A DNA stretch of 37,899 bases from assembly GCA_017857825.1 (NCBI GenBank), contig JAFMCK010000003.1:1-37899 (forward strand), given 5' to 3'. The notes under the pieces are model-generated. The model ran no database searches and was not told the DNA's origin. It worked only from the letters and a program-made list of their open reading frames with translations. Below, piece after piece: positions 314 through 37,554 of the stretch (position 1 is the stretch's first letter; every line of letters starts with the position of its first letter). The position numbers and the translations under genes were made by a program. This DNA is from Rhodospirillales bacterium (lineage in GTDB: Bacteria; Pseudomonadota; Alphaproteobacteria; Rhodospirillales; Casp-alpha2).

Positions 314-319
314 GCCAAA

Positions 320-23460: not shown

Positions 23461-23516
23461 ATGGGGTGGCTGATGGGATTTGAACCCACGACCCTCGGCA
23501 CCACAAGCCGATGCTC
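23461..23516 (-). repeat. attL: copy of the tRNA-His 3' part
   Basis: These 56 bp match the 3' part of the intact tRNA-His gene at 37499-37554 with four differences. A perfectly identical 28-bp core occupies 23489-23516. The homology stops at the anticodon arm, after which element sequence begins. By the logic of site-specific integration this copy carries the host's original T-arm and CCA end. Confidence 0.9.
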
Positions 23517-23591
23517 CCTGTGCATTAGGTCAAACTCAAGTGTAAGAATTTTATAAAAATTGGCTGTTTTATTGGTTTTTATGTGGTTTTT

Positions 23592-23656
23592 GTTGCCTTC
23601 CACAGCATAAGGCGGTAGCAAGGTGTAAGCGATAATTGTTGCCTTGACGTTGCCTT
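23592..23656 (+). promoter_or_regulatory. Left integrase arm-type sites (GTTGCCTT)
   Basis: GTTGCCTT occurs at 23592-23599, 23638-23645 and 23649-23656. The last two are 11 bp apart, one helical turn. The same 11-bp-spaced pair is found inside the right end at 37415-37433. This arrangement is what tyrosine integrases use as arm-binding sites. Confidence 0.65.
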
Positions 23657-23679
23657 AGGCCTTCTGCGGGGGAGTGATG

Positions 23680-24924
23680 ATGCCAAACAATATTCCAGAC
23701 ACGGTCGCGCAACGTGACCGTCTTGAGGCCCTAGATGGAAAGCAAACTGATTTCACAGACACAGGACCGAGACGCGTTCCAGGTCTAGCATTGCGGGTCT
23801 CGCCAACTGGTCAAAAGTCCTGGGTCATAACTGCCCGAAGGCCAGGACATAAAAACCCGAGTCGATTTGCACTCGGTGATTATCGTGACTTCACATTATC
23901 CGAAGCGCGCGATAAGGCGCTCGATTTCAAACGTAGTTTACGTGAAGGTATTGATCCTCTTGCTGAACGCACCGCCAACGCTGCCAAAGCTAAGGCAGAA
24001 AGATTGGAAACAATTGATGAGCTGATCGAACAATTCAATCAACGTTGCCTGGAGAAAAATAGAAGTGGAGCAGAACAAGTCGCTCTGATGAACCAAGATG
24101 TACTCCCGTTCTGGAGAGGTCGAAATATAAATGACATCACACGCAAGGATGTGAAGGCAGTCGTCATCAAGAAAAAGAAGACAGCTCCGGTCAGAGCTAA
24201 TCGCCTTTTAACACTGCTAAAAACATTCTTCACTTGGGCAATTGAAGAAGAATTTCTCAAGGAAAACCCCGCTAAGGATATCAAACCAGTAACCCAAGAA
24301 AGCGAACGTGAGCGAGTTCTCGATGATAACGAACTGCAAATCTTGTGGACGGCAACCGACAAGATGGGAGCTCCTTTCGGGGCAATCACTCAACTATTGA
24401 TGCTATCCGGCCAACGTCGACAAGAGGTCGCTGGCATGAAGTGGCCTGAAGTCGATTCAGAGAAAATGCTTTGGGCAATCCCAGCGGAGCGAAGCAAAAA
24501 TAAAAAGGCTCACACGCTCCCCCTTACACAAACGATGCTAGACATTATTAACGCCCAGCCAAAAGTTGCAGGGTCGGAGTATGTGTTTCCGTCAGGTCGA
24601 AGCCCGATGACAAAGCACGTCTCAGGTTACTCAAAGGCGAAGAAACGGCTTGATAAATTCAGCAGTATCAGTGATTGGACGCTACATGACTTGCGTCGAA
24701 CTGCTGCGACAAACATGGCCCGCTTGCGCGTGCCTATCCATATAATCGAAATGCTATTAAATCATCGTAGCGGGACGCTCAAAGGCGTAGCAAAGATATA
24801 TAACCGATACGATTATTTAACTGAGTCACGTAGCGCCTTAGAGGCTTTAGATCGACTTATGTTGAGCATCCGAAACAACGATGAGCTTGTAGTCGTTCCC
24901 TTGAGGCCGAGCAATTATGGATGA
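23680..24924 (+). CDS. int: Tyrosine recombinase / integrase (P4-type, DUF4102 N-terminus)
   Basis: This is a 414-residue site-specific recombinase that should integrate and excise the element at tRNA-His. The N-terminal DUF4102-like arm-binding domain (about 10-95) reads 'GLALRVSPTGQKSWVI' and 'FALGDYRDFTLSEARDKA'. A core-binding helical domain follows at about 110-200. The catalytic domain holds Arg246 (SGQRRQE), a Lys in 'SKNKKAHTLPL', His336/Arg339 (HDLRRT), His362 (LLNHRSG) and the nucleophile Tyr in 'IYNRYDY' (about 374-379). All catalytic residues are present, so it looks active. ATG 23680 is best spaced from GGGGGAG; GTG 23674 and ATG 23677 are in frame just before. The next gene overlaps its end by 8 bp. 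Confidence 0.95.
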   Translation: MPNNIPDTVAQRDRLEALDGKQTDFTDTGPRRVPGLALRVSPTGQKSWVITARRPGHKNPSRFALGDYRDFTLSEARDKALDFKRSLREGIDPLAERTANAAKAKAERLETIDELIEQFNQRCLEKNRSGAEQVALMNQDVLPFWRGRNINDITRKDVKAVVIKKKKTAPVRANRLLTLLKTFFTWAIEEEFLKENPAKDIKPVTQESERERVLDDNELQILWTATDKMGAPFGAITQLLMLSGQRRQEVAGMKWPEVDSEKMLWAIPAERSKNKKAHTLPLTQTMLDIINAQPKVAGSEYVFPSGRSPMTKHVSGYSKAKKRLDKFSSISDWTLHDLRRTAATNMARLRVPIHIIEMLLNHRSGTLKGVAKIYNRYDYLTESRSALEALDRLMLSIRNNDELVVVPLRPSNYG

Positions 24925-25450
24925 TTACAAAAAGTATTGTCCCGACAATAATGTTGAAGAATTCGATCAATGTGCGCGAGCGCTTATTGAAACTCTGATA
25001 GAGTTCAGGGTCAGCCCACAATCAAAGCAAGGATACGCGAAGGGAGTTCAGCGAAATCTATCTCAACTGCGCAATGCCTTAAAAAAAGCGCTCCAGTGCA
25101 AGGATACAACTGCCGTGATTCATGGGCGTCAGATCGATAAATTGACGGCAGGAAAAGATACCTCAGCCACCTTCGCCGACCCCGAAGCTTACGGCATAGC
25201 GATTGGCAACTTGGGCATTTTAAACCAGTTAAATGAACTTCTAGATAGCGATTACACAGAGAGAAAGTTAGATTCTCGTCGCAGCGCTGTTGCCATAGTT
25301 GCAAGTAGTCTGTGGCAAAAGCATGGTGGCACTATTACAACAAGCCAAGGTAACAACGAAAAACTTTTCACATCGTTTCTCGAGCGAGTTTGTATGGATG
25401 CGGGATTAGACTTCGATGCAGTGAGGTTGACGCGCGACTTTCTAAAGTGA
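24917..25450 (+). CDS. Unknown protein coupled to the integrase
   Basis: This is a 177-residue, mostly helical, soluble protein with no recognised domain. Its ATG lies inside the last codons of int (8-bp overlap), so it is translated with the integrase and may help or control it. The C-terminal part ('AVAIVASSLWQKHGG' to 'LERVCMDAGLDFDAVRLTRDFLK') looks compact. Its composition matches int rather than the host genes. A possible role as an excision or directionality partner is speculative. Confidence 0.65.
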   Translation: MDDYKKYCPDNNVEEFDQCARALIETLIEFRVSPQSKQGYAKGVQRNLSQLRNALKKALQCKDTTAVIHGRQIDKLTAGKDTSATFADPEAYGIAIGNLGILNQLNELLDSDYTERKLDSRRSAVAIVASSLWQKHGGTITTSQGNNEKLFTSFLERVCMDAGLDFDAVRLTRDFLK

Positions 25451-25515
25451 CCTGTCTGGGCGGATTTTGCCCACCGCCGTCCCTGCTACTCTGCGACGCT
25501 TACGGCCTACTAGGA

Positions 25516-25540
25516 AACTCCAAGAACCTAACTAGGAGTT
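25516..25540 (+). promoter_or_regulatory. Stem hiding the alpA ribosome binding site
   Basis: AACTCC (25516-25521) pairs with GGAGTT (25535-25540) around a 13-base loop. The second arm contains AGGAG, the ribosome site six bases before the alpA ATG at 25545. Folding would block translation, so synthesis of the regulator could be switched by RNA structure. Confidence 0.35.
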
Positions 25541-25544
25541 CTCT

Positions 25545-25760
25545 ATGACCATCGCACTTCTTACCCGATACGACCTAATCAAAAGATATCCTGTTCCCTC
25601 CTCCCGTCCTGGCCTTCGCGCGTGGATTAAGAAGCTAGGATTTCCTAAGCCACGATATGCTAACCCCAATACGCCTTTGTGGTCACCTGACGAGGTCGAC
25701 GCTTGGTTCTTAAGCCGCCCTAGTCATCACTTGGATGCGGGGCGTGTAACCAATGTCTAA
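25545..25760 (+). CDS. AlpA-like excisionase/regulator
   Basis: This is a 71-residue helix-turn-helix protein: 'LLTRYDLIKRYPVPSS', then 'LRAWIKKLGFPKPRY', and an aromatic 'LWSPDEVDAWFLSRP' that fits the wing and last helix of AlpA/MerR-type excisionases. In P4-like phages and satellites AlpA activates or aids excision and early transcription. AGGAG precedes the ATG within a possible stem. The primase-helicase start lies inside its last codons (8-bp overlap), giving a coupled regulator-replication unit. Confidence 0.85.
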   Translation: MTIALLTRYDLIKRYPVPSSRPGLRAWIKKLGFPKPRYANPNTPLWSPDEVDAWFLSRPSHHLDAGRVTNV

Positions 25761-27729
25761 AATGGAAAACCCCCGCGCGTCTGCAAACGCGCAAGGGTCT
25801 ATTCAGGGAGTAGTAGTCACCCCTGATAATACCCTAAAACCGGAATTGATAAAAGAGTATGTGGCGTTAGTTCACGCTCGCGCCGCCGGTCTTGAAGGAA
25901 AGCTGGTTCTGGCGAGCTATGGCGAGAACCCTGAAACCGGCCAAAGCATTTCGGCCAGAAACCTACACTTCGAAATTGGTGACGTTGACGGCATGACCGA
26001 AGCCGCATTTGCGTTAGGCAATCACCAGCACCGAAATATATATATCCCGCTCGCCGTTATGCGTGCTGACTTGAAGCGTGCGGCTAAGGGTAGCGAAGCT
26101 GATATCGAGGCGGTCCTAGGTTTGGTAGCGGACTTTGACGATCCAGACGCGGCTAGATACGCGAAGCGGATGCCCGTTGATCCTGCCTTGGTGATGGAGA
26201 CAAGCCCAGGCCGATACCAAGCCCTTGTTCTATTTGATACGCCACAAAAGCCAGCCGATGCGAAGCAACTGGCTATAGGACTAAAGCAAGCTGCCGCGTG
26301 TGACCACGGGACGGCAGACCTTTCCCATGTGTGGCGTGTTCCCGGTACTTTGAATTGGCCGAATAAAAAGAAGGTGGCCGAGGGGCGTAGCCCGCAGCCG
26401 CAGCCGGTAAAGATTGCTGAGCCGTGGATGGGCGTGTTTACGAGGCCGAGTGACTTCCCTTCCCAGCCAACACTTGAGGCAAAGAGCCCAGATAAAAAGC
26501 CAACGAAGGATGACGATAAATCCGCAGCGATTTGGACCCTAGAGACTGACCTGCAAGCCCTGATAACAAAGGGCGTTCCGGTAGGTGAACGCAGCGATCA
26601 ATTTTATCATGTGGTCGGGTGGCTAAAGGACAAAGGCTTGTCGCGTGAGAAGATTACAAGTTTATTGGAAGCCCACCCTAACGGTATCGCAGAGAAATAT
26701 AAGGGTCGTGTTGGGGCTCAAGTTGATGCGTGCTTTTCTCAGATTGAAAATAACACGCCGCCGCTGAGCAATGCATCGAGGCATGGTGTGAAGCTCTACA
26801 CCATTGACGAAATCGCAAACCGGCCACCGCCCGAATTTTTGGTTGATGGGTTATTCCCCTTAAAGGGTGTTGCCATCGTCGCGGGTGCATCCGGCCACAT
26901 GAAGTCCTTCGCCATGATTACCATTGGCATGAGTGTGGCTTCAGGCACGCCGCTGGGTGGTCGGAACGTAAAGAAAGGTGACGTGGTCTATATGCTGAAC
27001 GAGGGGCAGAATGGCTTTAGCTATCGGGTCAGAGCGTGCCGTGAGTTTTATGATATGGGCAGCGTTAACGGGTTTCGTGTTGCTGAATGTACGCCCAACC
27101 TAATGGACCCAAAGTCCCTCGAACCATTTGTTGAGGCCATCCAGGCGGCAGACGTATCGCCCCGATTAATCGTGATAGATACGTTTTCCAAGGCAACGTA
27201 TGGCGGCGAAGAAAACAGCGCGAAGGATATGTCGATGGCGATAAGCAATGCCTACGCGATTGCAGATAACTTTGATTGCCTTGTGGTTCTGGTCGACCAC
27301 ATCGGGAAGGATGAGGCCAGAGGTATGCGTGGTTCATCGGCTAAGTACGCCAACGTCGACGCCGTGTGCATGGTTAAAAAGCAGTCGCTACCCTTAAAAA
27401 CTACCGTCCAAATGACCGTTGCAAAGATGAAAGACGGTGAAGATGGAAAGAAGGTTCAGTTTGATATGCGGTTAGTTTCCGTCGCCGGTGAGAGAGTTCC
27501 TGCTTTAGAAGCTCAGCTTGGCGAAGGTGAGAAGCTCGGACAAAGAGACTGGATACGCCTAAAAATTGCGAGTGATGGCTCAGCCTCAAGGGATGCGCTT
27601 CAATCGGAATTCCTGTTGGAATATCCTGAGAGTTCAGCCAGTAGCTTTCGCAACCACATAAGTGCGCTGAAAAAGGCTGGCGACATAAGTGAGGACGCGA
27701 ACGGCTACACTTGCGATGCCGCTTTTTAA
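25753..27729 (+). CDS. Fused primase-helicase (RepB-like primase plus RepA/AAA_25 ATPase)
   Basis: This 658-residue replication protein has three parts. The N-terminal domain (about 35-210) has archaeo-eukaryotic-primase traits: the acidic pair VADFDDP (D127/D129), SPGRYQ (151-156) and RVPGTLN (195-201). The middle (about 365-560) is a RecA-like hexameric helicase domain with a P-loop GASGHMKS (378-385) and Walker B LIVIDTF (Asp476). The C-terminus (about 600-658) resembles a winged helix that could bind an origin. The P-loop has Met where the second Gly is usual. Such a single protein can open and prime an element's own origin, as P4 alpha does; the dyad array at 34018 is a candidate target. 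Confidence 0.88.
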   Translation: MSKMENPRASANAQGSIQGVVVTPDNTLKPELIKEYVALVHARAAGLEGKLVLASYGENPETGQSISARNLHFEIGDVDGMTEAAFALGNHQHRNIYIPLAVMRADLKRAAKGSEADIEAVLGLVADFDDPDAARYAKRMPVDPALVMETSPGRYQALVLFDTPQKPADAKQLAIGLKQAAACDHGTADLSHVWRVPGTLNWPNKKKVAEGRSPQPQPVKIAEPWMGVFTRPSDFPSQPTLEAKSPDKKPTKDDDKSAAIWTLETDLQALITKGVPVGERSDQFYHVVGWLKDKGLSREKITSLLEAHPNGIAEKYKGRVGAQVDACFSQIENNTPPLSNASRHGVKLYTIDEIANRPPPEFLVDGLFPLKGVAIVAGASGHMKSFAMITIGMSVASGTPLGGRNVKKGDVVYMLNEGQNGFSYRVRACREFYDMGSVNGFRVAECTPNLMDPKSLEPFVEAIQAADVSPRLIVIDTFSKATYGGEENSAKDMSMAISNAYAIADNFDCLVVLVDHIGKDEARGMRGSSAKYANVDAVCMVKKQSLPLKTTVQMTVAKMKDGEDGKKVQFDMRLVSVAGERVPALEAQLGEGEKLGQRDWIRLKIASDGSASRDALQSEFLLEYPESSASSFRNHISALKKAGDISEDANGYTCDAAF

Positions 27730-28047: not shown

Positions 28048-28515
28048 ATGTTCGGCTTCGGGAAAAAGAAAAAGCTACATGAAATGTCACGACAGACAAT
28101 TTCTCAATTCCACGGGTGGGTGCAAGGGCAACCCGCAGAGGTGTTAGGTGAGTTGTTGGATACGGCTGATCGAGTTCGATTTGATATGAGCATGACCGAT
28201 ACAGCTCGAGAGGCTGAGAAAGTATTTACACAATTTTTCGAAAACCCGTTCTCCATGCAGGAGCAACAACTTCACGCTATGCTTGATTGGTGTACGGACG
28301 TATCCGGCCAGTTCAAAGGACAGGGAGACATGATTCGACTTAGTGGCTTGTCGGTATGGGTTTGTAATGGCGTGTGTGCAGCACACACAGATTTGATCCC
28401 ACTCGGCTCAGCTTTGTGGAAGGACTTGGTGCGGGGTAAGGAACACTCACACTCATTTGAATGGGAAAAATACGAACTAGTACTTAAGCAGTTCGGAGCG
28501 AATGTTTCCCTATGA
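28048..28515 (+). CDS. Hypothetical cytosolic protein
   Basis: This 155-residue protein begins MFGFGKKKK. It is otherwise mainly helical, with two Cys in 'VWVCNGVCAAH' and no membrane segment or known motif. GGGGAG lies eight bases before the ATG, so expression is credible. It is the first gene of a rightward pair with the secreted protein at 28564. The lysine-rich start resembles small peripheral membrane or nucleic-acid-binding proteins, which is not enough to assign a role. Confidence 0.6.
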   Translation: MFGFGKKKKLHEMSRQTISQFHGWVQGQPAEVLGELLDTADRVRFDMSMTDTAREAEKVFTQFFENPFSMQEQQLHAMLDWCTDVSGQFKGQGDMIRLSGLSVWVCNGVCAAHTDLIPLGSALWKDLVRGKEHSHSFEWEKYELVLKQFGANVSL

Positions 28516-28563
28516 CGCGATCTAATGCTCAGCGTGCGATGAAATATAAAGCGGGGGTGCAAT

Positions 28564-29142
28564 ATGCTTATAGCGTCTTTTTCTAGGGGCAAGACGAGAT
28601 GGTTCATTTGTATCCTGACAATTTTATTCGTCGCTGAACCGGCTCACGCCAACGGGATTGAAAGATTAAAACAGTCCAAAGCTAGTGTTCTGGATATAGG
28701 ACTGAATAGACTGAATTTGGCTCTGCAGAGCCGAAACCAAGAATTCTTAAACAGTTATGCTTTCCAAGCGTCCAAAGGAAACTTAGAGCGCTATAAAAGC
28801 ATCCAGAAGATTGATGGAAAACTTTGGGCCAGATATGACGCTCAAAAAAAGAAGATAATGGTCGGCTATTGGCCGGGTAACGGAGAAGTCTTAAAAGGCG
28901 AATGCGGCGCTGTTTTTCATGGCATAAGAAGTATAGCTGGTCTCGATCCTAGAACGCTATCCCCCCATCATGGCTTCTCTTCATTCTCTGTTCATTTGTC
29001 TTTAGTGCATGACGTTTTAAAAGCGGATAAGACGGAGTTGAGAGCGTTGGACGAAGAAATTGTACTACACGTCTATTCATACCCAGTTGAATGCTGGGGA
29101 ACCTTGTATAGCGAAGATCTAACAATGGAAGTTAAAGAATAA
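28564..29142 (+). CDS. Hypothetical secreted protein
   Basis: This is a 192-residue protein with a signal peptide: basic start, hydrophobic 'WFICILTILFVAEPAHA', cleavage near residue 29. The mature part is about 160 residues and has a pair of Cys ('GECGAVFH' and 'PVECWGTL') that could form a disulfide. No family is recognised. GGGGG precedes the ATG. It follows the 155-residue gene by 48 bp and is probably co-expressed. As an exported cargo protein it might act on the cell surface. Confidence 0.62.
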   Translation: MLIASFSRGKTRWFICILTILFVAEPAHANGIERLKQSKASVLDIGLNRLNLALQSRNQEFLNSYAFQASKGNLERYKSIQKIDGKLWARYDAQKKKIMVGYWPGNGEVLKGECGAVFHGIRSIAGLDPRTLSPHHGFSSFSVHLSLVHDVLKADKTELRALDEEIVLHVYSYPVECWGTLYSEDLTMEVKE

Positions 29143-29212
29143 TATTGCCTGTATTCGATTATAGAATAGCCGCCCCAATCGTCCTGAGCAGCTGTCTAGT
29201 TCGCTAACCGAC

Positions 29213-29587
29213 TCATTCGCAAACCTTAGTAATACCGGCGCCGTAGCAGTTTCCTGATGGAGAGTCTCCTCCGTCGCCTGCAAAAAAATAACCGAAAAGC
29301 CCCATCCCAAGTATAAGGATGACAGCCATGATTAAGTCGGGACGTGACCGCTCATGCTCTTCCTTCATTTCGCGGTTTTTTTCAGAAGTCTTCGAGTTAT
29401 AGCTTAGAGCAATGTTTTCATATGCACGTCGCCAATTAGCGTCTTGTTCATGCGCCCAAAAAGCTAACTCTATATCTTTAACTTCTTCAATTGGCCGAGT
29501 AACGATGGGTGATTGTTTGCACACTAAGGCCAGCATTGGCCGTAAGGTTTTAAGATCGGCGAAATGCAGATCATCGAAACTCGGCAT
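29213..29587 (-). CDS. Hypothetical single-pass membrane protein
   Basis: This is a 124-residue protein with a helical, charged cytosolic part and one membrane helix near the C-terminus ('IMAVILILGMGLFGYFFA'). A short glycine-rich tail with two Cys (GNCYGAGITKVCE) follows. The ATG at 29587 has AAGGAAG nine bases upstream; a TTG at 29611 would take the ribosome site into the coding region. No family is recognised. It runs opposite to the secreted gene, and their 3' ends are 70 bp apart. Confidence 0.55.
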   Translation of the reverse strand: MPSFDDLHFADLKTLRPMLALVCKQSPIVTRPIEEVKDIELAFWAHEQDANWRRAYENIALSYNSKTSEKNREMKEEHERSRPDLIMAVILILGMGLFGYFFAGDGGDSPSGNCYGAGITKVCE

Positions 29588-29617
29588 GTTCGGCAGCTTC
29601 CTTTTAAACAAAGCTTA

Positions 29618-29824
29618 CTACCTCACCGCCACAACCTGCACCGACCCGCCCAGCCCGCCGCACTCATTACACCGCGCCTTAGCGCCTATCTCAGTCAGCG
29701 TAACACTCCCACCATACTTTGCGGCAATCGCATTCACGTCGATATCTGCAACGCGCTTACAGGCGTCACAGAACACACGTAGGCCGTGATTGTTGGATAG
29801 GAGGTTGGCGAGGGTGGCGGTCAT
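29618..29824 (-). CDS. Small zinc-ribbon protein
   Basis: This is a 68-residue protein with two Cys pairs, FCDACK (about 18-23) and ARCNECGG (about 50-57), spaced to bind one zinc ion. Similar short zinc-ribbon proteins are common in alphaproteobacteria and of unknown role. It ends 30 bp before the start of the downstream membrane protein and may be co-transcribed with it. The ribosome site is not clear. A 6-bp inverted repeat directly precedes the ATG. Confidence 0.65.
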   Translation of the reverse strand: MTATLANLLSNNHGLRVFCDACKRVADIDVNAIAAKYGGSVTLTEIGAKARCNECGGLGGSVQVVAVR

Positions 29825-29849
29825 GTCTGCATTTTAACAGGAAGCAGAC
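29825..29849 (-). promoter_or_regulatory. Inverted repeat touching the zinc-ribbon start
   Basis: GTCTGC (29825-29830) pairs with GCAGAC (29844-29849) immediately upstream of the ATG. It may be an operator or leader hairpin. On the plus strand it is followed by GTTTTT, so it could also act as a terminator for rightward transcripts. Confidence 0.3.
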
Positions 29850-29947
29850 GTTTTTCCATAGTGGGTCAATGGTCTGCTTGTAGCTAGCTCCAGAAATCAA
29901 TACAGCGGAGAGAAATGGTGCAAGAGGATTAGGTCGAATCCGCCACC

Positions 29948-30073
29948 TTAGCCTTTGCCTTTGCCAGTCGTTGTTTTTTTGATGCCTGAATCTGCCGTCG
30001 CTAAAACTTTTTCTTTAACTTTTTTGGGCTTTTTGGCTTCTCGATTGCCTCGTTGATTATTACCTTTAGCCAT
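29948..30073 (-). CDS. 41-residue Lys/Gly-rich small protein
   Basis: This short gene encodes a very basic peptide starting MAKGNNQRGNREAKKPKK and ending in 'TTTGKGKG'. The ribosome site is excellent (GGAGG eight bases before the ATG), and the leader holds a palindrome at 30100-30117. From memory, near-identical 'MAKGNN...KKPKK' proteins occur widely in alphaproteobacteria as unnamed small proteins, probably binding nucleic acid or ribosomes by charge. It lies 114 bp downstream of an ATP-grasp ligase gene on the same strand, so a peptide-substrate role is conceivable but unproven. Confidence 0.75.
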   Translation of the reverse strand: MAKGNNQRGNREAKKPKKVKEKVLATADSGIKKTTTGKGKG

Positions 30074-30099
30074 TATGGTACCCTCCGGGTGCTAAAAAC

Positions 30100-30117
30100 T
30101 TAGGTCGTCAGACCTAA
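30100..30117 (-). terminator. Palindrome with T-run between ATP-grasp and small-protein genes
   Basis: TTAGGTC (30100-30106) pairs with GACCTAA (30111-30117) over a 4-base loop. Read on the minus strand it is followed by GTTTTT, a short intrinsic-terminator layout. It would end or attenuate the ATP-grasp transcript before the small gene, or serve as an operator for it. Confidence 0.5.
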
Positions 30118-30187: not shown

Positions 30188-31354
30188 TCATGGTGTTAAT
30201 TCAAGCGTGGCAACCGGGTGATGTCGCGTTTTGTCACTATTGTGGGTTAGCCCGTTATCCGCAATTCGGAGGATCATTTGTTCATAATCCATTTCTAGAT
30301 TGAGTAAACAGGCTCGATAGAAATACCCCTTTCGAAGGCCCGGCATAAGGTTTGCCTCGATAAAGTGCGGGACCTGGTTAGCATCCATTTTAACATCAAT
30401 GCGACCAAAAGATTTTCCGCCCAGTGCCTTAAAGGCAGCTTTTGCCAGATCAGAAAGTTGCTTGTGAACGAGGATGTCGGTGACTGCGGTGACCGTCTCA
30501 CGGTCAAATTTCTTAATGTCGAAATCCAGAATGCGATCGCCATTTTTGTTTTCGTCCACGATAATTTCTATCGGCATTGCCGTCAGCTTCTGACTGGCGT
30601 TGTCTTCGAAAATGCCAACGCTGAATTCTCTGCCGGATAAGTAGGTTTCTACCAGGCAGGGTAATGCCTGAGACTGATGAATATCCATGACTTTTGAACG
30701 AAAGCTTTCAAAATCATAGACGATTGAGTTGGCATCAATTCCCCGGCTATCACCACCAGTTAGCGGCTTCACAAACAGCGGGTACTCCAGCGGGACGGAC
30801 CCTGCCGTCGGGTGAGTGTCGGGGGCCGTTATAAAGTGACGGGCTGTTGCGACCCCTGAGTCGCGCATAATGTTTTTTGCCCGGCTTTTGTCTGACTCTC
30901 TATCGAGCGCTTTTCGGTTGGACGCCATATAGGCAATGCCATGACGGTCGAGAAAATCATTAAGCCACAGGTCGGTACCACTGAAATTGAAATATTTCAC
31001 ACCAGAGAATACGAGATCTGGCTTTCGCGTCGCCAATTTTATCAAGTCAGCTAAGGTGTTGATGCAGGTAATGACGACGCTTTCATAGCGACTGGACAGA
31101 ATGCGTAAAATTAGGTTTTCGTCTAATCCGATGCCAATGGATTTTCTATTCTTGGTGACGTCTATGGCATCGGGAATAGTAACAATCTCGATCGTCTTGC
31201 TCGACTTCGTCGTCGTAATGGCCGTCGGAAGGATGGACGGCGGATGGTGTAGGCCTTGGTAAGGCGCTGGCAAAGCACCCAAGATCATTTCATCAGGAAT
31301 GTTCGTCGCTTTCGCGTTAATTGTTTTCAAAGCACGCCTTTCTCTAGAGGGCAT
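30188..31354 (-). CDS. ATP-grasp ligase, D-Ala-D-Ala ligase-like
   Basis: This 388-residue protein has an ATP-grasp fold in its second half. Landmarks are 'KSRAKNIMRDSGVATARHF' (hinge helix), 'YPLFVKPLTGGDSRGI' (phosphate-binding loop), 'VETYLSGREFSVGIF' and 'GRIDVKMD' with 'FIEANLMPGL', the metal-binding Glu/Asn strand of Ddl enzymes. The first 190 residues hold a Rossmann-like preATP-grasp region. Such enzymes join a carboxylate to an amine using ATP. The amino acid or peptide acted on is unknown; it is longer and more divergent than housekeeping Ddl. The start at 31354 has GGAGC ten bases upstream. Confidence 0.8.
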   Translation of the reverse strand: MPSRERRALKTINAKATNIPDEMILGALPAPYQGLHHPPSILPTAITTTKSSKTIEIVTIPDAIDVTKNRKSIGIGLDENLILRILSSRYESVVITCINTLADLIKLATRKPDLVFSGVKYFNFSGTDLWLNDFLDRHGIAYMASNRKALDRESDKSRAKNIMRDSGVATARHFITAPDTHPTAGSVPLEYPLFVKPLTGGDSRGIDANSIVYDFESFRSKVMDIHQSQALPCLVETYLSGREFSVGIFEDNASQKLTAMPIEIIVDENKNGDRILDFDIKKFDRETVTAVTDILVHKQLSDLAKAAFKALGGKSFGRIDVKMDANQVPHFIEANLMPGLRKGYFYRACLLNLEMDYEQMILRIADNGLTHNSDKTRHHPVATLELTP

Positions 31355-32105
31355 GAGCGGGTTCGCTCCATGGAAATGGAGCGGAACGGCGAAAGCTGCG
31401 GACACCGAAGGCGCCGCCGGGCTCACTTAATTTTAAGGTTAGGGCGTCCCGATCTATCTCGATCGCGATGCTTAAACAGCGTCAATTTGTATAGGCTTTA
31501 GCGCGCAACACCAACGATCATGTCAAGAAGGCGACCATGCAGTGGGCCAACACCTCTAGGATGTAGCTATTATCGCCCAGTTCGTGGATAGAAATGTTGG
31601 ACGCTGTATTTAAGAATACCACAGCGCCATCATGATATAAGGTCATGAGGCGTGGTTGCCGTCAAGGTGATTGTTTTCGGGGGTCGGCAGCATTCCTATG
31701 ACAACACTGTTGGCGTCGATAGTTAGGGTCGCGTAACGGGAATTAAAGTCGCCGCTGAGAGGGCGAAGATTAGAGTGATCTCAATATGCTTCTAGCCGTA
31801 AAGCTCGACTATTTAGGGGGCTGTATTTTTCTGCAAGCCGCCGAGCGAAGCGTCTCCGAAACCAAATCATACGCCAATAATTAGCAACTCCAGTGCATTC
31901 ACCTCAGTCAGCAAATGACAGCATAGGGTCATCAACGGACCTCGACAATCCAGCCTGATAATGTCCGCTTACAGATCATAACCAGTCTCGATGACGTGAC
32001 CTCAATCTGGTCCGCTTGTAGCCAAAAGGGGAATATAGATATTCTGATCCACGTCATGTACTTTCTATCGACAGGTGCGAGAAATGGCGACGATTTGGAA
32101 TTTCG
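31355..32105. other. 751-bp stretch without a recognisable gene
   Basis: I see no open frame with protein-like composition, RNA gene or insertion sequence here. Short half-similar segments (TCCGCTTACAG at 31966-31976 and TCCGCTTGTAG at 32009-32019) are the only repeats noticed. It separates two divergent cargo genes and should hold both promoters; it may also contain decayed DNA. Confidence 0.5.
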
Positions 32106-33077
32106 ATGAAAAACATTTTCTCTTCTTATCCAGTTGCCAATATTGGAAGGCATTTTGGGCTGACATATTTTGACATTGGTTCCAGAGGCGGTTTTCAGGA
32201 CGACCTATACCCCATTGCCTTTGCTGTAGATGTGGTGGGGTTCGAACCTGATCCAGAAGAATTTGAACGTTTACTCCACCGACCGATTGAACCGTGGAGG
32301 TCGGTTACACATTTGCCATATGGTGTTGGAGATATATCTGGACGCCAAAAACTTTTCATACCAACCGACCCGCAATCAGCCTCTTTATTAAAACATAATA
32401 CGAAGATCGGACGTAAGTTTAACAAAACACAGTTTTTTGAAATTGATCGAACCGAGGAAATAGAAACACTTTGTCTGAAAGACGCTCTTGAAAAAACGAC
32501 TCTCAAATCAATTGATTATTTGAAAATTGATATTGAAGGGGCGGAGCTAGCTGTTTTCATGTCGTCTCCTGCCGTAATGGGCGACGTGCTGGCGATTAAA
32601 ACTGAGGTTTCCTTTTTGCCATTTCGCAACGGCCAACCGCTGGCCAGAGATGTTGATCTCTTCCTAGAACAAGCTGGTTTTGAATTGATGGACATTGCCG
32701 AACCAGCCCATTGGCGGCGCCATGGACATTTAATACACCCCTATTATTCTTCCGAGAATCCACCATATTCAAAAGCACAGATCATGCAGGCGGATTGTCT
32801 TTATTTCCGAGATCCGGATAGTTTGGATGGTGATGTTACAAAGCTTCTCAAGTTAACCCTGATCGCTTTATCTTTTGGCTACTTTGATCATGCGTTGATG
32901 ATCTTGGAACGATCAGAAGTTGCAGAATTCCTATCGACCGAGTACAGCAAAAAACCTATCGATATCGTCGGGCCACTATCAAGTGCATATGGTCGCAAGG
33001 CATTTCTTCAAGCATTCTATCTGCAGATCCGGAACATCATACCATTCGTTCGTTATCTAAAAAATCTGCTACGTTGA
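32106..33077 (+). CDS. FkbM family methyltransferase
   Basis: This is a 323-residue S-adenosylmethionine-dependent methyltransferase of the FkbM type. 'LTYFDIGSRGGFQ' near the N-terminus is the SAM-binding loop, 'VVGFEPDPEEF' the acidic strand that holds the ribose, and 'SIDYLKIDIEGAELAVF' the family hallmark. FkbM enzymes O-methylate sugars, glycans or secondary metabolites. The gene is AT-richer than the host genes and has only a weak ribosome site (GGA). The C-terminal third (about 240-323) extends beyond the fold. In an element this points to a surface glycan or metabolite modification cargo. Confidence 0.87.
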   Translation: MKNIFSSYPVANIGRHFGLTYFDIGSRGGFQDDLYPIAFAVDVVGFEPDPEEFERLLHRPIEPWRSVTHLPYGVGDISGRQKLFIPTDPQSASLLKHNTKIGRKFNKTQFFEIDRTEEIETLCLKDALEKTTLKSIDYLKIDIEGAELAVFMSSPAVMGDVLAIKTEVSFLPFRNGQPLARDVDLFLEQAGFELMDIAEPAHWRRHGHLIHPYYSSENPPYSKAQIMQADCLYFRDPDSLDGDVTKLLKLTLIALSFGYFDHALMILERSEVAEFLSTEYSKKPIDIVGPLSSAYGRKAFLQAFYLQIRNIIPFVRYLKNLLR

Positions 33078-33200
33078 TGAGCGCATTTCTAAGTTTGGAA
33101 ACTTCGGCTTCGGGTCACAAACGGCCTAAGCAGAGCGGATGGTAATTAGTCCGCGTTCCAAGCATAAGCGGTAATTTTCCTCAGAATTTAGCCTTACAGG

Positions 33201-33917
33201 CTACTTCACATCTGCGAACGCCGTAGAGAGGAATTTATCAATCGTGGCCTTCGTCTTTGGATCGTGGGCAACAGGGTGACCTGTATCGACGTAAATAGCT
33301 TCAAATTGCCCTCTAAAGACATCTGAGCAGAGTGAGTTGTCTGAGACTTCCGTATCGTGGCGGCCATTGATATGCAGGGCAGGAATGTTTGATGAGGCTT
33401 TAAAGTTGCGCTTTGAGCAACCGAACCCGATTGCAACCACAGCATTGAAATCATCACCGCCATACTCAGCGGCAGCTATTCCGCCTTCACTGAAGCCAGC
33501 CAGAACCACCCTGTTTTGATCAACCCAATCGAATTGTCTAACGCGCTCTAACATTAAACGCGCTTCTTCGTGACGCCAGCCAAGTACACTATTCGCCCTT
33601 CCGCATGAACTTGATCTATTTGGGCGGGCAAAACTTGAAGGGGCAAACACCACGTAACCGAGCTCGTTAAAAATGCTGATGTGGTCGAATTGACGACCAT
33701 TTAACCCTGAACAGCCGTGCAGAAAAACGACTGCTGGCAATGGTTCCTTTTGACACCCTTCATCTTGAAGGGTCAGCGGCCCAGTGAAGCACTCTGAGGT
33801 TATGGGAAAGCTCACCCTAGCAAAATCTACAATCTTCGACTTTGTAAGCTCACTTGTCGTCACACACCCTGCCGTGAGTGATATAGCGATTAAACATACT
33901 AATTTGGATATCTGCAT
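33201..33917 (-). CDS. Lipoprotein alpha/beta hydrolase, dienelactone-hydrolase-like
   Basis: This is a 238-residue protein with a lipoprotein signal ('ISLTAGC', Cys near residue 18), so it is membrane-anchored outside the cytosol. The hydrolase fold is clear: 'AVVFLHGCSGLNGRQ' (oxyanion loop), 'VVLAGFSEGGIAAAEYGG' with the G-x-S-x-G nucleophile, 'HINGRHDTEV' with the acid Asp, and 'VDTGHPVAHD' with the catalytic His. It should cleave an ester or lactone; the substrate is unknown. ATG 33917 is chosen over GTG 33923, which is two codons upstream and in frame. It ends the cargo block; its upstream flank is the dyad-rich region. Confidence 0.82.
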   Translation of the reverse strand: MQISKLVCLIAISLTAGCVTTSELTKSKIVDFARVSFPITSECFTGPLTLQDEGCQKEPLPAVVFLHGCSGLNGRQFDHISIFNELGYVVFAPSSFARPNRSSSCGRANSVLGWRHEEARLMLERVRQFDWVDQNRVVLAGFSEGGIAAAEYGGDDFNAVVAIGFGCSKRNFKASSNIPALHINGRHDTEVSDNSLCSDVFRGQFEAIYVDTGHPVAHDPKTKATIDKFLSTAFADVK

Positions 33918-34016
33918 TATCACCCAACCATGAGAAAACTATCTTGTGCATCGCCCATAAACCTAAAATCAGAAAACACACGTATCAACTATGGATACAT
34001 ACGTGGGTATGTTTAA

Positions 34017-34164
34017 GCGCATCACCCCTGATGCGCCCTACTCCGCATCTAAGGTGATGCGCTAGTGATGCGCTTTTTAAGTGATGCGCGCTGAAAGCCG
34101 CAGAAAACATAGGCTTTTGAGCGCATCTGGGGTGATGCGGAATAGATGCAGCCACAAGCGCATC
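34017..34164. repeat. Array of GATGCG dyads, candidate origin of replication
   Basis: The hexamer GATGCG or its complement CGCATC occurs nine times in 147 bp. Six of these copies form three 18-bp units of identical geometry, CGCATC-N6-GATGCG: 34018-34035 (N6 ACCCCT), 34044-34061 (TAAGGT) and 34122-34139 (TGGGGT). Further single copies lie at 34067-34072, 34083-34088 and 34159-34164. The first and third units are near inverted copies of each other. GATGCGCGCTGAAAGCC (34083-34099) also faces GGCTTTTGAGCGCATC (34112-34127), so the strand can fold extensively. This resembles an iteron or operator array; origin function is inference. Confidence 0.7.
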
Positions 34165-34195
34165 ACCACTCCCCCTCTGTAAGAGGGGAGTGGTG
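34164..34195. promoter_or_regulatory. Strong 11-bp hairpin next to the dyad array
   Basis: CACCACTCCCC (34164-34174) pairs perfectly with GGGGAGTGGTG (34185-34195); a bulged C and three more pairs (TCT/AGA) extend it to a 3-base loop. No T-run follows on either strand. It could be a single-strand initiation or transcription-blocking structure. The remaining 34196-34651 shows nothing else recognised, apart from AAAGGAG before the next gene. Confidence 0.6.
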
Positions 34196-34651
34196 CGCGT
34201 GAGAGTGATTTGAGGTGATAAAACTTTGTGGATGTACTCAACCCGTCGCTGATTAGAAATCCCTGAGACTTCGCGTCCAGCGCTAGGCCGCAGATTTACG
34301 GACAAAAATAGAACTACTGGTTCTCCATAAAACTGGCAGCTCAAAGCCTAGCATCGGCTAAATAAACAGCGGCATCCGATGAATTAAATCAATCATTTCC
34401 AAGCGTTGGGTTGCTGTGGGTGTTTCAAGGCATCACCAAGGCAACAAAACCAGCTACGCCAAGACTTTTAGACCCCGGGGGTGCCATACCCCATACCCCG
34501 AGAAAATCGACGAGGGCATGATGTGTATGGTGGTCTGAAACTCGTTCTGAGCATAATTTTTTTGAAAATCTAACGCCTTCTACCACCCGTGTATCTCCCG
34601 CTGAAAGACACGCAATGATATATTTCATGTGTAGTTTCAAAGGAGAACACG

Positions 34652-34993
34652 ATGAGCGGCAGACCACCGGGCTACCCCAAGACAGGCGGAGCCAAAAAGG
34701 GCAGCGTTAAAACGCAGACCCGCGCCGTGAAGGATGCCATCCGCAACGTGTTCTATGACCAGCTTGGCGGCGAAAAGTATCTGAAAAAGATAGCCGACAC
34801 CGACCCCGCTCTTTTTTGCTCATTGCTGGCGAAGGTAATCCCCCAGGAAATCGCTGCCGAGGTGAACGTGAACCACCGAGGCATAAGCCTAGGTGATGCG
34901 ATGATTGAGGCCGAAGGCCGCATTGAGGCTTACCACCAATCAAAGATCATCGACGTAACCCCAACGGAGCCAGCCAATGTTCGACGCGATTAG
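34652..34993 (+). CDS. Phage-type small protein, terminase-small-subunit-like start
   Basis: This is a 113-residue protein. It begins with a Gly/Lys-rich 'GRPPGYPKTGGAKKGS' tail, followed by a helical domain ('VKDAIRNVFYDQLGGEKYLKKI', 'ALFCSLLAKVIPQEI'). Similar N-termini and helical parts are seen in phage proteins encoded just before terminase genes (DUF5681-like or small-terminase-like). Such proteins bind DNA at packaging sites. AAAGGAG lies eight bases before the ATG. It opens a tightly overlapping rightward run; the next ATG lies 17 bp before its stop. The packaging role is inferred. Confidence 0.6.
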   Translation: MSGRPPGYPKTGGAKKGSVKTQTRAVKDAIRNVFYDQLGGEKYLKKIADTDPALFCSLLAKVIPQEIAAEVNVNHRGISLGDAMIEAEGRIEAYHQSKIIDVTPTEPANVRRD

Positions 34994-35606
34994 ACGCATG
35001 AATGGCGGTTCAACGGCGCTGACTGTTTTTAGAATGGACTGGAGCAAAAAGATGGAAGCCATCGAAACCAAGCTATCGGAGATTAACTCGGAAATCAGCA
35101 AGGCCGAAGCCTTCTATCGTGACGCCGCACTAGCCGCCGATGAAGGTGGTCAGGCCGAAGTTAAGAAGCGCGATCAGGCTTTCAGCAAGATCGACAAGCT
35201 ACATCGCCAGAAACGTGACGCCGAAGCTGCCCATGTGGCCGCTCAGGAGCGCGTAGAGCGCGATAATGAGAAGCGTCGGCGCGACAATGTCCGGCAGCAA
35301 GAAACGCTAATTACAGAACACCACAGACGCCTAGAACGGCACGCTAAAAAGATTGATGACTTGATTGGTGAGCTTGCTGAGGTGTCGAGCGAGTTTCTTG
35401 ATTGCTGCGACGATTTGATGGCCGCTGGGGTAAAGCCCCGCATATCACACGCCGCCGTCCAAGACTTTCCTAGAGTGATCGGCAGTCACTTCAAGGGCAG
35501 TCGAATGGAGGTCGGTATCCGGCACCCCTTCGATAATGAGCCGCAACGGTTCGCGGATCGCTGCCCTGCCCTTGATGACGTACTTCGCCACCGGAGGGCC
35601 GTGTGA
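34977..35606 (+). CDS. Coiled-coil protein of the phage-like block
   Basis: This is a 209-residue protein dominated by a highly charged coiled coil (about 25-150; Lys/Glu/Arg-rich heptads such as 'KLSEINSEISKAEAFYRDAA'). A small C-terminal domain with a Cys pair (FLDCCDD) follows. GGAG stands eight bases before the ATG at 34977; ATG 34998 is a possible later start. It overlaps both neighbours, so it belongs to one polycistronic unit. No known family; a structural, scaffold or adaptor role is suggested by the coil. Confidence 0.6.
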   Translation: MFDAIRRMNGGSTALTVFRMDWSKKMEAIETKLSEINSEISKAEAFYRDAALAADEGGQAEVKKRDQAFSKIDKLHRQKRDAEAAHVAAQERVERDNEKRRRDNVRQQETLITEHHRRLERHAKKIDDLIGELAEVSSEFLDCCDDLMAAGVKPRISHAAVQDFPRVIGSHFKGSRMEVGIRHPFDNEPQRFADRCPALDDVLRHRRAV

Positions 35607-35863
35607 TGCCCCGTGGTGGTTTCCGTATGAACGCCGGTCGAAAGCCAGGATCGCGCGACCTTCGCACCGTACAGCTTGAAAACGCCATGCTGGAAACGGG
35701 CGTTGATGACTTTGTTGGTGCCCTTGTGGCCGTGGTCGAAGATGACACCCAGCCCGAAAAGCTGCGCATTGATGCCTGTCAGACCCTAGCCGGTCGGATG
35801 ATGGGCGGCGTTCTTGCCCCTTCCCAACTTCAACGCAAATTCACCGGAGCCGCAAATGACTGA
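35606..35863 (+). CDS. Small protein with terminase-small-subunit-like N-terminus
   Basis: This is an 85-residue protein starting MPRGGFRMNAGRKPGSRD, the Arg/Gly-rich 'GAGRKPG' type of lead common in phage small terminase and related DNA-binding proteins. A short helical domain follows ('LRIDACQTLAGRMMGG'). Its ATG shares one base with the preceding stop (TGATG), with GGAGG upstream. It is shorter than a full small terminase (usually 130-180 residues), so it may be a minimal or interfering form. Confidence 0.55.
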   Translation: MPRGGFRMNAGRKPGSRDLRTVQLENAMLETGVDDFVGALVAVVEDDTQPEKLRIDACQTLAGRMMGGVLAPSQLQRKFTGAAND

Positions 35864-36512
35864 GGAAGCCCCTGCCCCAACACAAACACCCGAAGCCCCA
35901 GCCCCTTCGCCGTCTGAGGCCGTTGCGAACTTACAAGCGGACAAAGAATGGACTGCCGATTTTAGCGGCACCAATGGTCGCCAAGCTCAGCTTCGGGCCG
36001 TTGAACGTAAGACAGCCCTTTTACGGCCCGCTGAGGACGCCAGCCCTGCCGTCCCTGAGCATCTAAAGGAAGCTTTAGAGGACAGCAGCACACGGCCACA
36101 CGCTGAGCGGTACGTCCCGGCGCAATCGCCCGAGGAATATAAATTCACCTTTAACGATGCTGAGAGCTTTGAACACGCCAAAGAAATCACATCGCTCGCC
36201 CAGGAAACCGCGTTCGCAGTCGGTGCCAATCCTCAATTCGCTCAGGCAACGGTTAAGCACGTCCAAGAGCGTATTGCCCGTGTGGCCGAAGGTGCGTCGG
36301 TCGACGCTAACCCTGGCAGCTTAGACGCGGCTATTGAGGCTAGGTATGGCAGCAAAGCCACCGAGACAATCGAAGCCGCTGGTGAAGCCCTAGCCGCCAT
36401 GCCGGAGCAAGGACGCCAATGGGTACAGAACACCCTTAGAACCTTGGACCCTGAAACGGCGACTTGGTTTGTCGGACGCCTAGCGTCCACTCGTCGGGCA
36501 TCTCGCCCATAA
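35856..36512 (+). CDS. Ala/Pro/Glu-rich phage-like protein, possibly scaffold
   Basis: This is a 218-residue protein. It has a disordered Pro/Ala/Glu-rich start ('APAPTQTPEAPAPSP') and then an acidic helical body containing 'EEYKFTFNDAESFEHAKEI' and 'MPEQGRQWVQNTLRTL'. Acidic, helix-rich proteins with disordered starts between packaging and capsid genes are often head scaffolds, but no motif proves this. The start at 35856 has GGAG and overlaps the previous gene by 8 bp. No capsid gene follows, which is odd for a true scaffold. Confidence 0.5.
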   Translation: MTEEAPAPTQTPEAPAPSPSEAVANLQADKEWTADFSGTNGRQAQLRAVERKTALLRPAEDASPAVPEHLKEALEDSSTRPHAERYVPAQSPEEYKFTFNDAESFEHAKEITSLAQETAFAVGANPQFAQATVKHVQERIARVAEGASVDANPGSLDAAIEARYGSKATETIEAAGEALAAMPEQGRQWVQNTLRTLDPETATWFVGRLASTRRASRP

Positions 36513-36546
36513 CCCGCCGTTAAACGGCACATAGAAAGGAATGAGA

Positions 36547-37143
36547 ATGTTTGTATCTCAAAACCAAGCCGTTGCAGTGGCGACGGCATTAGCTAAGAAA
36601 TTCTCCAGCATCGAAGGGCGTCCACAAGACAGCCGGACGGCAATCCCAACCGCCACGATCAACGACGGCGGTAACGCTGCCTATCGCTTCGTGTGCGACC
36701 AGGAAGCGGCCCGCCGTGCGCGTATCACGACCGCCCCAAGCGATGCTGCGGCAGACGTGGACGCTCGCACGAAGGACGTTGCAGACGCTAAGAAGGCTAT
36801 CGGCGCTGCCAATGACGATAAACTCTCGCTGGTCGATGCGCGTCTAACGCTGGCAGTGGCCGAGGCAAGCCTTGTCTTTGCCCAGGCCCAAGCTACCGCC
36901 GCCGATGCCGTCGCACGTGCTGACAGCGAGGCTATGGCTTCGGAGTTGATTACCATTGAAGCCCAGGCCGCAGCCGAGGCGGCCCGTCTTGCCGTTGATG
37001 CCGTCCAAGCCGACCAAAAGGCCAAGGTCGATATGGTCAACGCTGAACAAGGCGACAAGATCGCACAAGCCCGCAAGAAACACCAAGAGGACTATCACGC
37101 CGTAAAGCGTGCCGAGATCCTCAAAGCGGCAGACGCCGTCTAA
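36547..37143 (+). CDS. Ala-rich helical protein of the phage-like block
   Basis: This is a 198-residue, extremely Ala/Asp/Lys-rich protein forming long amphipathic helices (about 65-190). The first 55 residues ('SQNQAVAVATALAKKF' to 'AAYRFVCDQEA') look globular. AAGGA lies seven bases before ATG 36547; ATG 36541 would be too close. Its composition resembles colicin- or tail-fibre-like coils, but no family is recognised. It precedes the zinc-ribbon gene by 3 bp. Confidence 0.5.
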   Translation: MFVSQNQAVAVATALAKKFSSIEGRPQDSRTAIPTATINDGGNAAYRFVCDQEAARRARITTAPSDAAADVDARTKDVADAKKAIGAANDDKLSLVDARLTLAVAEASLVFAQAQATAADAVARADSEAMASELITIEAQAAAEAARLAVDAVQADQKAKVDMVNAEQGDKIAQARKKHQEDYHAVKRAEILKAADAV

Positions 37144-37146
37144 GCA

Positions 37147-37389
37147 ATGAGAGTTGAACGTGAAACCCGTTACCGCATTCGCGGTATAGCCTGCCCCGGT
37201 AAGAGGTTCTCTTACGACGGGCAGGCTTACCACGTTGTCGAGGTTGAAGAGGTTATCACCCGTAGCGGACGTGTCGGCGACGTGCTGACGTTTGAGACAA
37301 ACTGCGAGAACTGCGGTCAGGCGTTCCATTTCTCAAAGATGAAAAGCTATTTCCGGCCACTGAAACAGTGCCGGAGATGTGAAGGGTAG
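37147..37389 (+). CDS. Small zinc-ribbon protein at the element's right end
   Basis: This is an 80-residue protein with a beta-rich first part and a four-cysteine zinc site: CENCGQ (about 53-58) and CRRCEG (about 75-80). The CxxC pairs, 22 residues apart, suit a DNA-binding or structural zinc ribbon. It is the last gene of the six-gene run and ends 26 bp before the right arm-type sites. No closer function can be read. Confidence 0.6.
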   Translation: MRVERETRYRIRGIACPGKRFSYDGQAYHVVEVEEVITRSGRVGDVLTFETNCENCGQAFHFSKMKSYFRPLKQCRRCEG

Positions 37390-37414
37390 ACGCTGCGGTT
37401 TTAATCACAAAAAC

Positions 37415-37433
37415 GTTGCCTTGATGTTGCCTT
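37415..37433 (+). promoter_or_regulatory. Right integrase arm-type sites (GTTGCCTT pair)
   Basis: GTTGCCTT at 37415-37422 and 37426-37433, 11 bp apart, repeats the left pair (23638-23656) in the same orientation, about 94 bp inside the right core. The intervening bases are GAT here and GAC at the left. Confidence 0.65.
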
Positions 37434-37498
37434 GGGGGAGATGACCCCAGAGAACTCTCAAGGTAAAATCAAATAAGCAATTGAATAACAAAGAGGAA

Positions 37499-37554
37499 AT
37501 GGGGTGGCTGACGAGATTTGAACTCGCGACCCTCGGCACCACAAGCCGATGCTC
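37499..37554 (-). repeat. attR: tRNA-His 3' part joined to the element
   Basis: This is the partner of 23461-23516. The 28-bp core is 37527-37554. On its left the element supplies the T-arm, acceptor strand and CCA of the live tRNA-His; on its right is the host's original 5' part. Confidence 0.9.

Follow-up and report, generated by a model that had tools for sequence, protein, structure and literature searches.

A tRNA-His-integrated element in a relative of Magnetovibrio is probably a phage satellite with its own putative small terminase subunit

We analysed a 37,899-nt stretch of DNA from a Rhodospirillales bacterium related to Magnetovibrio (contig JAFMCK010000003.1 of assembly GCA_017857825.1, positions 1–37,899 of the forward strand; hereafter the window), which carries an element of about 14 kb inserted in a tRNA-His gene (Table 1). 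Comparison with other genomes and with viral contigs suggests, with a probability that we put at about 0.72, that this is an integrated phage satellite that encodes its own small terminase subunit (TerS) and would be packaged by a podovirus-type helper phage. An earlier sequence-only reading had proposed a phage satellite from gene layout; this interpretation is supported by the recurrence of the modules of the element elsewhere, and by the finding that one right-end gene, r113, has relatives at the TerS position in phages.

The ends of the element are marked by 56-bp direct repeats that are 93% identical and lie 14,038 bp apart, in agreement with the earlier description of a unit of about 14 kb with att cores in tRNA-His; the left edge given there, 23489, falls inside the left repeat, which itself starts at 23461. 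The right repeat is the 3' part of an intact tRNA-His(gtg) (ARAGORN; Rfam, 68.9 bits), and an Rfam scan at the gathering threshold returned nothing besides the tRNA. In two genomes of the same genus (G001 and G004) the tRNA-His gene is uninterrupted, with a thiamine pyrophosphate (TPP)-enzyme gene (Pfam) on one side and relatives of the window genes at 18530, 17271 and 16788 on the other; the window has the same flanks with the element in between. Joining the left att copy to the right flank rebuilds a tRNA that is identical at 77 of 77 positions to that of G004 and at 76 of 77 to that of G001; the present tRNA-His of the window differs from these at 4 and 5 positions, respectively. A search with the tRNA stretch matched 18 of 41 genomes of the family, at 20 places (23 genomes had no match), and two tRNA-His copies were found only in the window genome (G000) and in a Magnetovibrio sp. 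metagenome-assembled genome (MAG; G014). The T-arm of the working tRNA-His of the window, GAGATTTGAACTC, was present in none of the 17 other matching genomes. At the level of sequence, these comparisons demonstrate integration into tRNA-His. Because the joined flanks rebuild an uninterrupted tRNA and the working T-arm form occurs in none of the 17 other genomes, the 3' end of the working tRNA most likely came in with the element. Inward of the repeats, one exact copy of the motif GTTGCCTTGAYGTTGCCTT lies near each end of the element (23638 and 37415), and a third copy, with 2 mismatches, lies at 34427 (0.01 matches expected by chance). We read the two exact copies as putative integrase arm sites.

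An integrase and a primase-helicase had been predicted at one end of the element, and both have Pfam matches there (Phage_integrase, 2e-23; RepB_primase and AAA_25). The AlpA-like regulator predicted between them held up in part: a small gene, encoding 71 aa, is in place and has a weak PHROG DNA-binding match (E 0.0015), with no match in Pfam or NCBIfam, and the label "AlpA-like" is based on its size, its position and our reading of the protein. The gene that overlaps int, orf177, had no family match in Pfam, PHROGs or NCBIfam and no similarity to the int-overlapping gene of another genome, G097. The helicase half of the primase-helicase resembles RepA (PDB 1g8y, E 6e-4), and matches the G014 element at 42% and phage L081 at 40% over 312 aa. 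A primase search of 61 relatives matched 9 genomes, where besides the window's own copy only that of G014 was strong (8e-78), the rest being at 2.5e-25 or weaker. Among viral contigs the primase matched 19 loci, at which no other element gene was matched, and the start of the window primase was matched by L014 only (44%). An integrase-profile scan of genome contigs yielded 3 loci, with only that of the Magnetovibrio MAG being close.

We compared a three-sequence profile of r113 with IMG/VR, where 75 stretches matched the pattern and 4 encode a relative. In all 4 contigs the relative lies upstream of the large terminase subunit (TerL) gene; these contigs represent two distinct phages, with L082 being 100% identical to part of L081 and L084 giving the same matches as L083. 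In L081, an open reading frame (ORF) of HNH-like type lies between the r113 relative and TerL (phrog_2, 1e-38). The same phage goes on to encode a portal protein (phrog_332, 1e-135; Pfam Head-tail_con, 4e-106) and a protein with relatives annotated as putative capsid assembly protein in some Pelagibacter phages, and it also has a Prim-Pol and AAA_25 protein that matches the primase-helicase of the G014 element at 40% over 606 aa. Because its relatives sit upstream of TerL in 4/4 viral contigs, r113 is most likely a TerS. An independent suggestion that the slot of r113 is a TerS slot comes from a 5.9-kb contig (L085) of a genome in another family of the class (G488), in which a recognised Terminase_2 TerS occupies the same slot. 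By itself, r113 does have relatives in the two IMG/VR phages, and these occupy the TerS position, which fits a gene that the element has in common with a helper. Alternatively, r113 might be a decoy that blocks the TerS or TerL of the helper, making the element a defence island against podoviruses: some Staphylococcus aureus pathogenicity islands (SaPIs) encode an interference protein that inactivates phage TerS (PMC10690885, in excerpt), and the sequence of r113 alone cannot tell partner from decoy. We regard this as very unlikely, given that the relative is the phage's own gene near TerL in every one of the four contigs and that a PADLOC defence scan gave no match for the cargo proteins scanned; at E 0.1, with 10 proteins, r209 alone matched, with three weak hits (best E 0.0046) that we read as coiled-coil.

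The modules of the element co-occur in other genomes. In G014 (contig NZFO01000006.1; NCBI order Rhodospirillales), two tRNA-His copies 13.16 kb apart enclose relatives of int (58%), the AlpA-like gene (65%), the helicase half (42%) and r113 (45%). In G008, a further member of the window's family, a 7.26-kb stretch between the end of a tRNA-Arg and an imperfect repeat (36 bp, 83%) contains a distant integrase (22%, E 5e-13) together with r113 (44%), r86 (40%), r232 (38–39%) and an r209-like gene (E 2e-3); as in the window, int lies at the end far from the tRNA and faces it, and the r113–r232 block is on the tRNA side. The L085 contig of G488 carries, in order, a VapE-type gene, the Terminase_2 TerS (above the Pfam cut-off), an r209-like gene 39% identical to that of G008, and a relative of the C-terminal part of r232. 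A further r113 relative (37%, E 1e-9) lies beside a resolvase in G097. Recurrence in tRNA-His of related strains, a possibility raised by the sequence-only reading, was thus seen for int, the AlpA-like gene, the helicase and r113 in G014, and not for the G008 set, which is in tRNA-Arg; the suggested alphaproteobacterial setting is supported in that the Magnetovibrio MAG belongs to the window's family. Relatives of r113 were found in 5 of 297 genomes of the order and in 2 of 385 of the class (the window's own and a weak hit in G641, E 9.5e-5), and the r209 profile matched 1 of 258 genomes, the window's own not being among them; the genome sets are samples of larger groups and overlap one another. 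The order count includes a match in G033 (E 8.5e-4) that we dropped when tblastn did not reproduce it.

Consistent with the earlier claim that virion genes are lacking, the 19 ORFs of the element, scanned at E 0.01 with Pfam and PHROGs, matched no terminase, capsid, portal, tail, lysis, relaxase, conjugation or transposase family, and tblastn of the L081 TerL, portal and capsid-assembly proteins against the window found no match. No relative of these three L081 proteins was found in the neighbourhoods of G008, G014, G097 or the 5.9-kb G488 contig (the weak hits in G033 and G641 were outside this check), so that in these places the right-end genes are not seen within a longer, complete prophage. 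The same genes could still be the remains of a decayed prophage that lost TerL and its capsid and tail genes and kept those for integration and replication together with a few from the head end (TerS, scaffold-like); in keeping with this, r113 is a phage-type gene that lies beside TerL in phages, and the helicase family is common to the same phage, L081. By contrast, overlapping small gene sets with different integrases, replication genes and tRNA targets are found in the att-delimited elements of G008 (tRNA-Arg) and G014 (tRNA-His). With the sets recurring in two att-delimited elements, it is unlikely that separate prophages decayed to the same set; G488 fits this argument, although its contig breaks off within the block. 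Moreover, the elements of G008 and G014 have no match to the L081 TerL, portal or capsid-assembly protein, and no structural-gene remnants were detected in the window (Pfam, PHROGs, tblastn). We therefore consider a decayed prophage unlikely. Given the place of r113 relatives in phages and the recurrence of the set, the right-end genes are not random debris.

The middle of the element is a mixed-strand block (28048–34344) of about 6.3 kb, close to the 6 kb of mixed-strand cargo noted earlier, and is cargo of unproven use. The ATP-grasp protein encoded there fell under the cut-off of every NCBIfam match among the matches listed (25 of 42). In G014, a block encoding CusB/HlyD-type and AcrB-family efflux proteins lies between r113 and the tRNA (L033/L075, 13.0–19.5 kb), so these satellite-like elements may carry metal-efflux cargo. 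The long non-phage cargo, the efflux block of G014, the unassigned functions of r209, r86 and r232, and the lack of a helper among our findings would also suit an integrative element that moves without a phage, by conjugative mobilisation or passively, and that uses its right-end genes for regulation or for handling its own DNA. Such an element is improbable in our judgement, since no relaxase or conjugation family was matched at E 0.01 and a gene in the TerS position, in a slot that in L085 holds a Pfam TerS, has no evident use beyond packaging.

The most likely helper for such a satellite is a podovirus of the L081 type, with a T7-like head-tail connector; L081 has genes related to the helicase as well as to r113. 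The helicase shared with L081 and the primase start shared with L014 suggest that these elements trade replication modules, and TerS modules too, with phages and other satellites. L014 is a 10.9-kb IMG/VR contig (1–10857) with genes for a prohead protease, Phage_capsid, Terminase_4, a DUF5906 primase and a sub-threshold RepB_primase; because of its protease, capsid and Terminase_4 genes it is likely to resemble a capsid-forming phage-inducible chromosomal island (cf-PICI). Within the window's own assembly, L081 TerL had no match, in a search run without positive control, and the connector family gave only a 33-position remnant (L103), below the cut-off. A 3.6-kb contig of that assembly, C95 (L109, G000, 1–3572), encodes TerL (phrog_2), TerS (phrog_51) and an AAA helicase 32% identical to that of the window; it is a candidate helper-type phage, or a stray phage contig. 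Separately, relatives in the genus and the family (G004, G008 and G001; L100, L101 and L102) have a podovirus-type portal gene (PF12236), which in G004 has neighbours that, by eye, are also found beside the portal remnant in the window genome. A conserved phage relic and a domesticated cluster are candidate readings of this portal gene cluster.

At the right end, successive ORFs on the plus strand overlap by 17, 4 and about 50 nt, in line with the overlapping run of small genes described in the sequence-only reading. Pfam names none of r113, r209, r86, r232, r200 and r80, the sole match, to r209, being sub-threshold. At E values up to 10, r209 gave weak coiled-coil-type matches, the best to a tape-measure family (E 0.011), and r86 gave a TerS family at E 0.24. 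The r232 of G008 weakly matched a PHROG of unknown function (E 0.0066), and r200 showed no similarity to the gene in the same place in L085. Searches of phage records with r113, its L081 form, the G008 r232 and r86 returned nothing. Three candidate identifications were set aside: a TerS fold for r113 (predicted local distance difference test (pLDDT) 58; nothing below E 0.29 in a PDB search), a scaffold role for r232 established by similarity (the comparison with capsid-assembly proteins was in register and not significant, the PDB profile search was unconvincing and pLDDT was 48), and the sole match of the window r232 to phage records, a capsid protein at E 0.6, which we took as chance. Their linkage to TerS suggests that r209, r86 and r232 probably modify the way in which the helper packages DNA or assembles its capsids.

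Several results weigh against a satellite with its own TerS. No sure helper was found. Viral-contig scans found no relatives when r113 and r232 served as single-sequence queries, nor with profiles of r232 (two scans) and r209, and int found only two distant ones, so that no encapsidated copy came to light. Pfam recognises no TerS in r113; the match of its C-terminal tail to a gene that precedes TerL in another phage is weak (hhalign E 3.6e-4, probability 37%), that to an annotated TerS is weaker (E 0.004, probability 8%), and the r113 model, from four sequences, is of low confidence (pLDDT 58). The other right-end genes are less well tied: r232 is rare, being found in 2 of 297 genomes of the order (the window's own and G008) and 2 of 385 of the class (the window's own and G488), its profile showed no significant similarity to the capsid-assembly proteins of phages (E 0.24, probability 0.3%), and its AlphaFold model, from a single sequence, is poor (pLDDT 48); the window r209 is linked weakly to its namesakes (E 2e-3 and 6e-4) and missed by their profile. 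Of the related elements, that of G014 has an integrase frame (L033 7959–9197) that stops early, about 70% through, with similarity continuing past the stop; because of this early stop, the G014 copy may be dead or immobile. The contig of G488 stops within the block, a little past the VapE gene.

As the sequence shows, the integrase recombines within tRNA-His, and the element most likely gives the tRNA a replacement 3' end. If the satellite reading is correct, entry or induction of a helper phage would be followed by a turn of the integrase to excision, brought about by the AlpA-like protein and perhaps also the orf177 product, by analogy with phage-inducible chromosomal minimalist islands (PICMIs), and the primase-helicase, judging from its domains, would replicate the excised circle. 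From the place of r113 in phages, its product would pair with the helper TerL and steer it to element DNA, such that helper capsids are filled with that DNA; r209, r86 and r232, given their linkage to TerS, would act on helper packaging or capsid assembly. A broader proposal, which we hold tentatively and at somewhat less than even odds, is that these elements form a tRNA-targeting satellite family whose hosts include Magnetovibrio relatives and one or more other families of alphaproteobacteria. Its core would be a packaging-takeover block of TerS, r209, r86 and r232, in which TerS (of unrelated types, r113 or Terminase_2) and, likewise, the replication module (RepB_primase-AAA, Prim-Pol-AAA or VapE) would be exchangeable; such a family would parasitise podoviruses with a T7-type connector, and r232 and r209 would be new redirection proteins acting on capsid or packaging.

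Two further observations concern other loci. A shortened r113 relative, followed by a 117-aa protein with an HGG motif and small, probably exported proteins, lies near a tRNA-Met in G008 (L043, G008:C83, 899–4163), and a similar r113 and HGG pair is present in G097 (L044); the pair is possibly a further element type. In the window, four genes at 19132–23212 separate the conserved flank from the element, and none of them was matched in the sequence around tRNA-His of G001 or G004. They encode a homocysteine S-methyltransferase (Pfam) and, by reading, an ion channel, a PrpF-like protein and a RidA-like protein, and are perhaps an older insertion.

Table 1. Coordinates of the element, its genes and its proposed sites in the window.
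Feature	Position	Strand	Basis or remark
Left att repeat	23461..23516		Displaced original 3' end of tRNA-His; T-arm form shared with family tRNA-His genes, e.g. G004, G013, G014
Arm-site-like motif, left copy (proposed integrase arm site)	23638..23656	+	Exact GTTGCCTTGAYGTTGCCTT; proposed function inferred
int, tyrosine recombinase	23674..24924	+	Pfam Phage_integrase 2e-23, Arm-DNA-bind_3, Phage_int_M
orf177	24917..25450	+	8-nt overlap with int; place of iolg in PICMIs; no family match
AlpA-like 71-aa protein, probable excision/activation factor	25545..25760	+	65% to G014 counterpart; PHROG DNA-binding E 0.0015
Primase-helicase, RepB_primase N-domain and AAA_25 RepA-like helicase	25753..27729	+	Pfam
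Cargo, 155 aa	28048..28515	+	No family match
Cargo, 192 aa, likely exported	28564..29142	+	No family match; signal peptide by reading
Cargo, small membrane protein, 132 aa	29213..29611	-	No family match; membrane segment by reading
Cargo, 68 aa, Cys pairs	29618..29824	-	No family match
Cargo, ATP-grasp, D-Ala-D-Ala-ligase-like	30188..31426	-	Pfam Dala_Dala_lig_C 1e-19
Cargo, FkbM-type methyltransferase	32106..33077	+	Pfam Methyltransf_21 2e-16; TIGR01444 above cut-off
Cargo, dienelactone-hydrolase-like esterase	33201..33923	-	Pfam DLH 2e-6
r113, proposed TerS	34652..34993	+	Relatives upstream of TerL in L081/L082 and L083/L084; recurs in G014, G008; PHROG_11043 (unknown function) 2.5e-6
r209, charged coiled-coil-like protein	34977..35606	+	Weak matches to r209-like genes of G008 (E 2e-3) and G488 (E 6e-4)
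r86, small protein	35603..35863	+	40% over 53 aa, E 7e-7, in G008 element
r232, proposed capsid-assembly (scaffold-like) factor	35814..36512	+	38–39% to G008 r232; C-terminal relative in G488; scaffold comparison not significant
r200, Ala-rich coiled-coil-like protein	36541..37143	+	Ala-rich gene in same position in L085, similarity not significant
r80, small Cys-pair protein	37147..37389	+	No family match (Pfam, PHROGs, NCBIfam)
Arm-site-like motif, right copy	37415..37433	+	Exact GTTGCCTTGAYGTTGCCTT; proposed function inferred
Right att repeat	37499..37554		Element-borne 3' part of working tRNA-His; T-arm GAGATTTGAACTC
tRNA-His(gtg), integration target, kept intact	37500..37576	-	ARAGORN, Rfam

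The phage satellites that have been studied in detail belong to a small number of bacterial groups, chiefly enterobacteria, staphylococci and vibrios, which cyanobacteria and actinobacteria have joined in more recent reports. If the satellite family in Magnetovibrio relatives is real, phage satellites reach another large alphaproteobacterial group, the elements hint at how blocks like the metal-efflux genes move among these bacteria, and r209, r86 and r232 are testable unnamed proteins for podovirus packaging or capsid takeover. In the literature, the titles and abstract openings among the matches listed mentioned no satellite family from alphaproteobacteria that has this set of genes. The core genes of the satellite P4 are Sid, Psu, Delta and alpha; none had a Pfam or PHROG match in the element, and no direct comparison with P4 was made. 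Further families, the marine VEIMEs (virion-encapsidated integrative mobile elements) and tycheposons, are named elsewhere (PMC11389934, in excerpt).

By the features that we tested, the element is neither a PICMI nor a cf-PICI. PICMI115 carries int, an int-overlapping gene, alpA and prim, the first three of which are needed for excision, with prim taking part in replication (PMC10803314, in excerpt), and the window element has the same order of int, int-overlapping gene, alpA-type gene and primase. By contrast, PICMIs are recognised by integration at fis, encode an AlpA of PF05930/PF12728 and a DUF3987/DUF5906 primase, average 6.7 kb and are found in Vibrionaceae (PMC10803314, in excerpt), whereas the window element is in tRNA-His of a Magnetovibrio relative, has an AlpA-like gene with no Pfam match and a RepB_primase and AAA_25 primase, and, at 14 kb, also carries a TerS-like gene and 6 kb of cargo. 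The cf-PICIs have their own capsid, portal, protease and terminase genes (PMC10690885, in excerpt); the element lacks recognisable capsid, portal, protease and TerL genes, although it shares the start of its primase (44%) with the cf-PICI-like L014. Phage-inducible chromosomal islands (PICIs) have a specific att site, int at one end, a regulator, a primase or replication module, sometimes TerS, and accessory genes (PMC6092414, in excerpt). Scans of the ORFs with Pfam, PHROGs and NCBIfam, which include no dedicated PICI models, found no PICI-specific genes (stl/rpr-type regulator or capsid redirection), and the TerS type and right-end genes of the element are unnamed. Like PICIs, the element is integrated at a specific att site, carries int at one end and has a primase and replication module and a proposed TerS, recognised by its position in phages and not by Pfam, with no TerL or tail genes found. 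The likeness to PICIs or P4 would lie in the way of working, with membership by descent not established, and we conclude that the element probably represents a new family that works like a TerS-encoding PICI.

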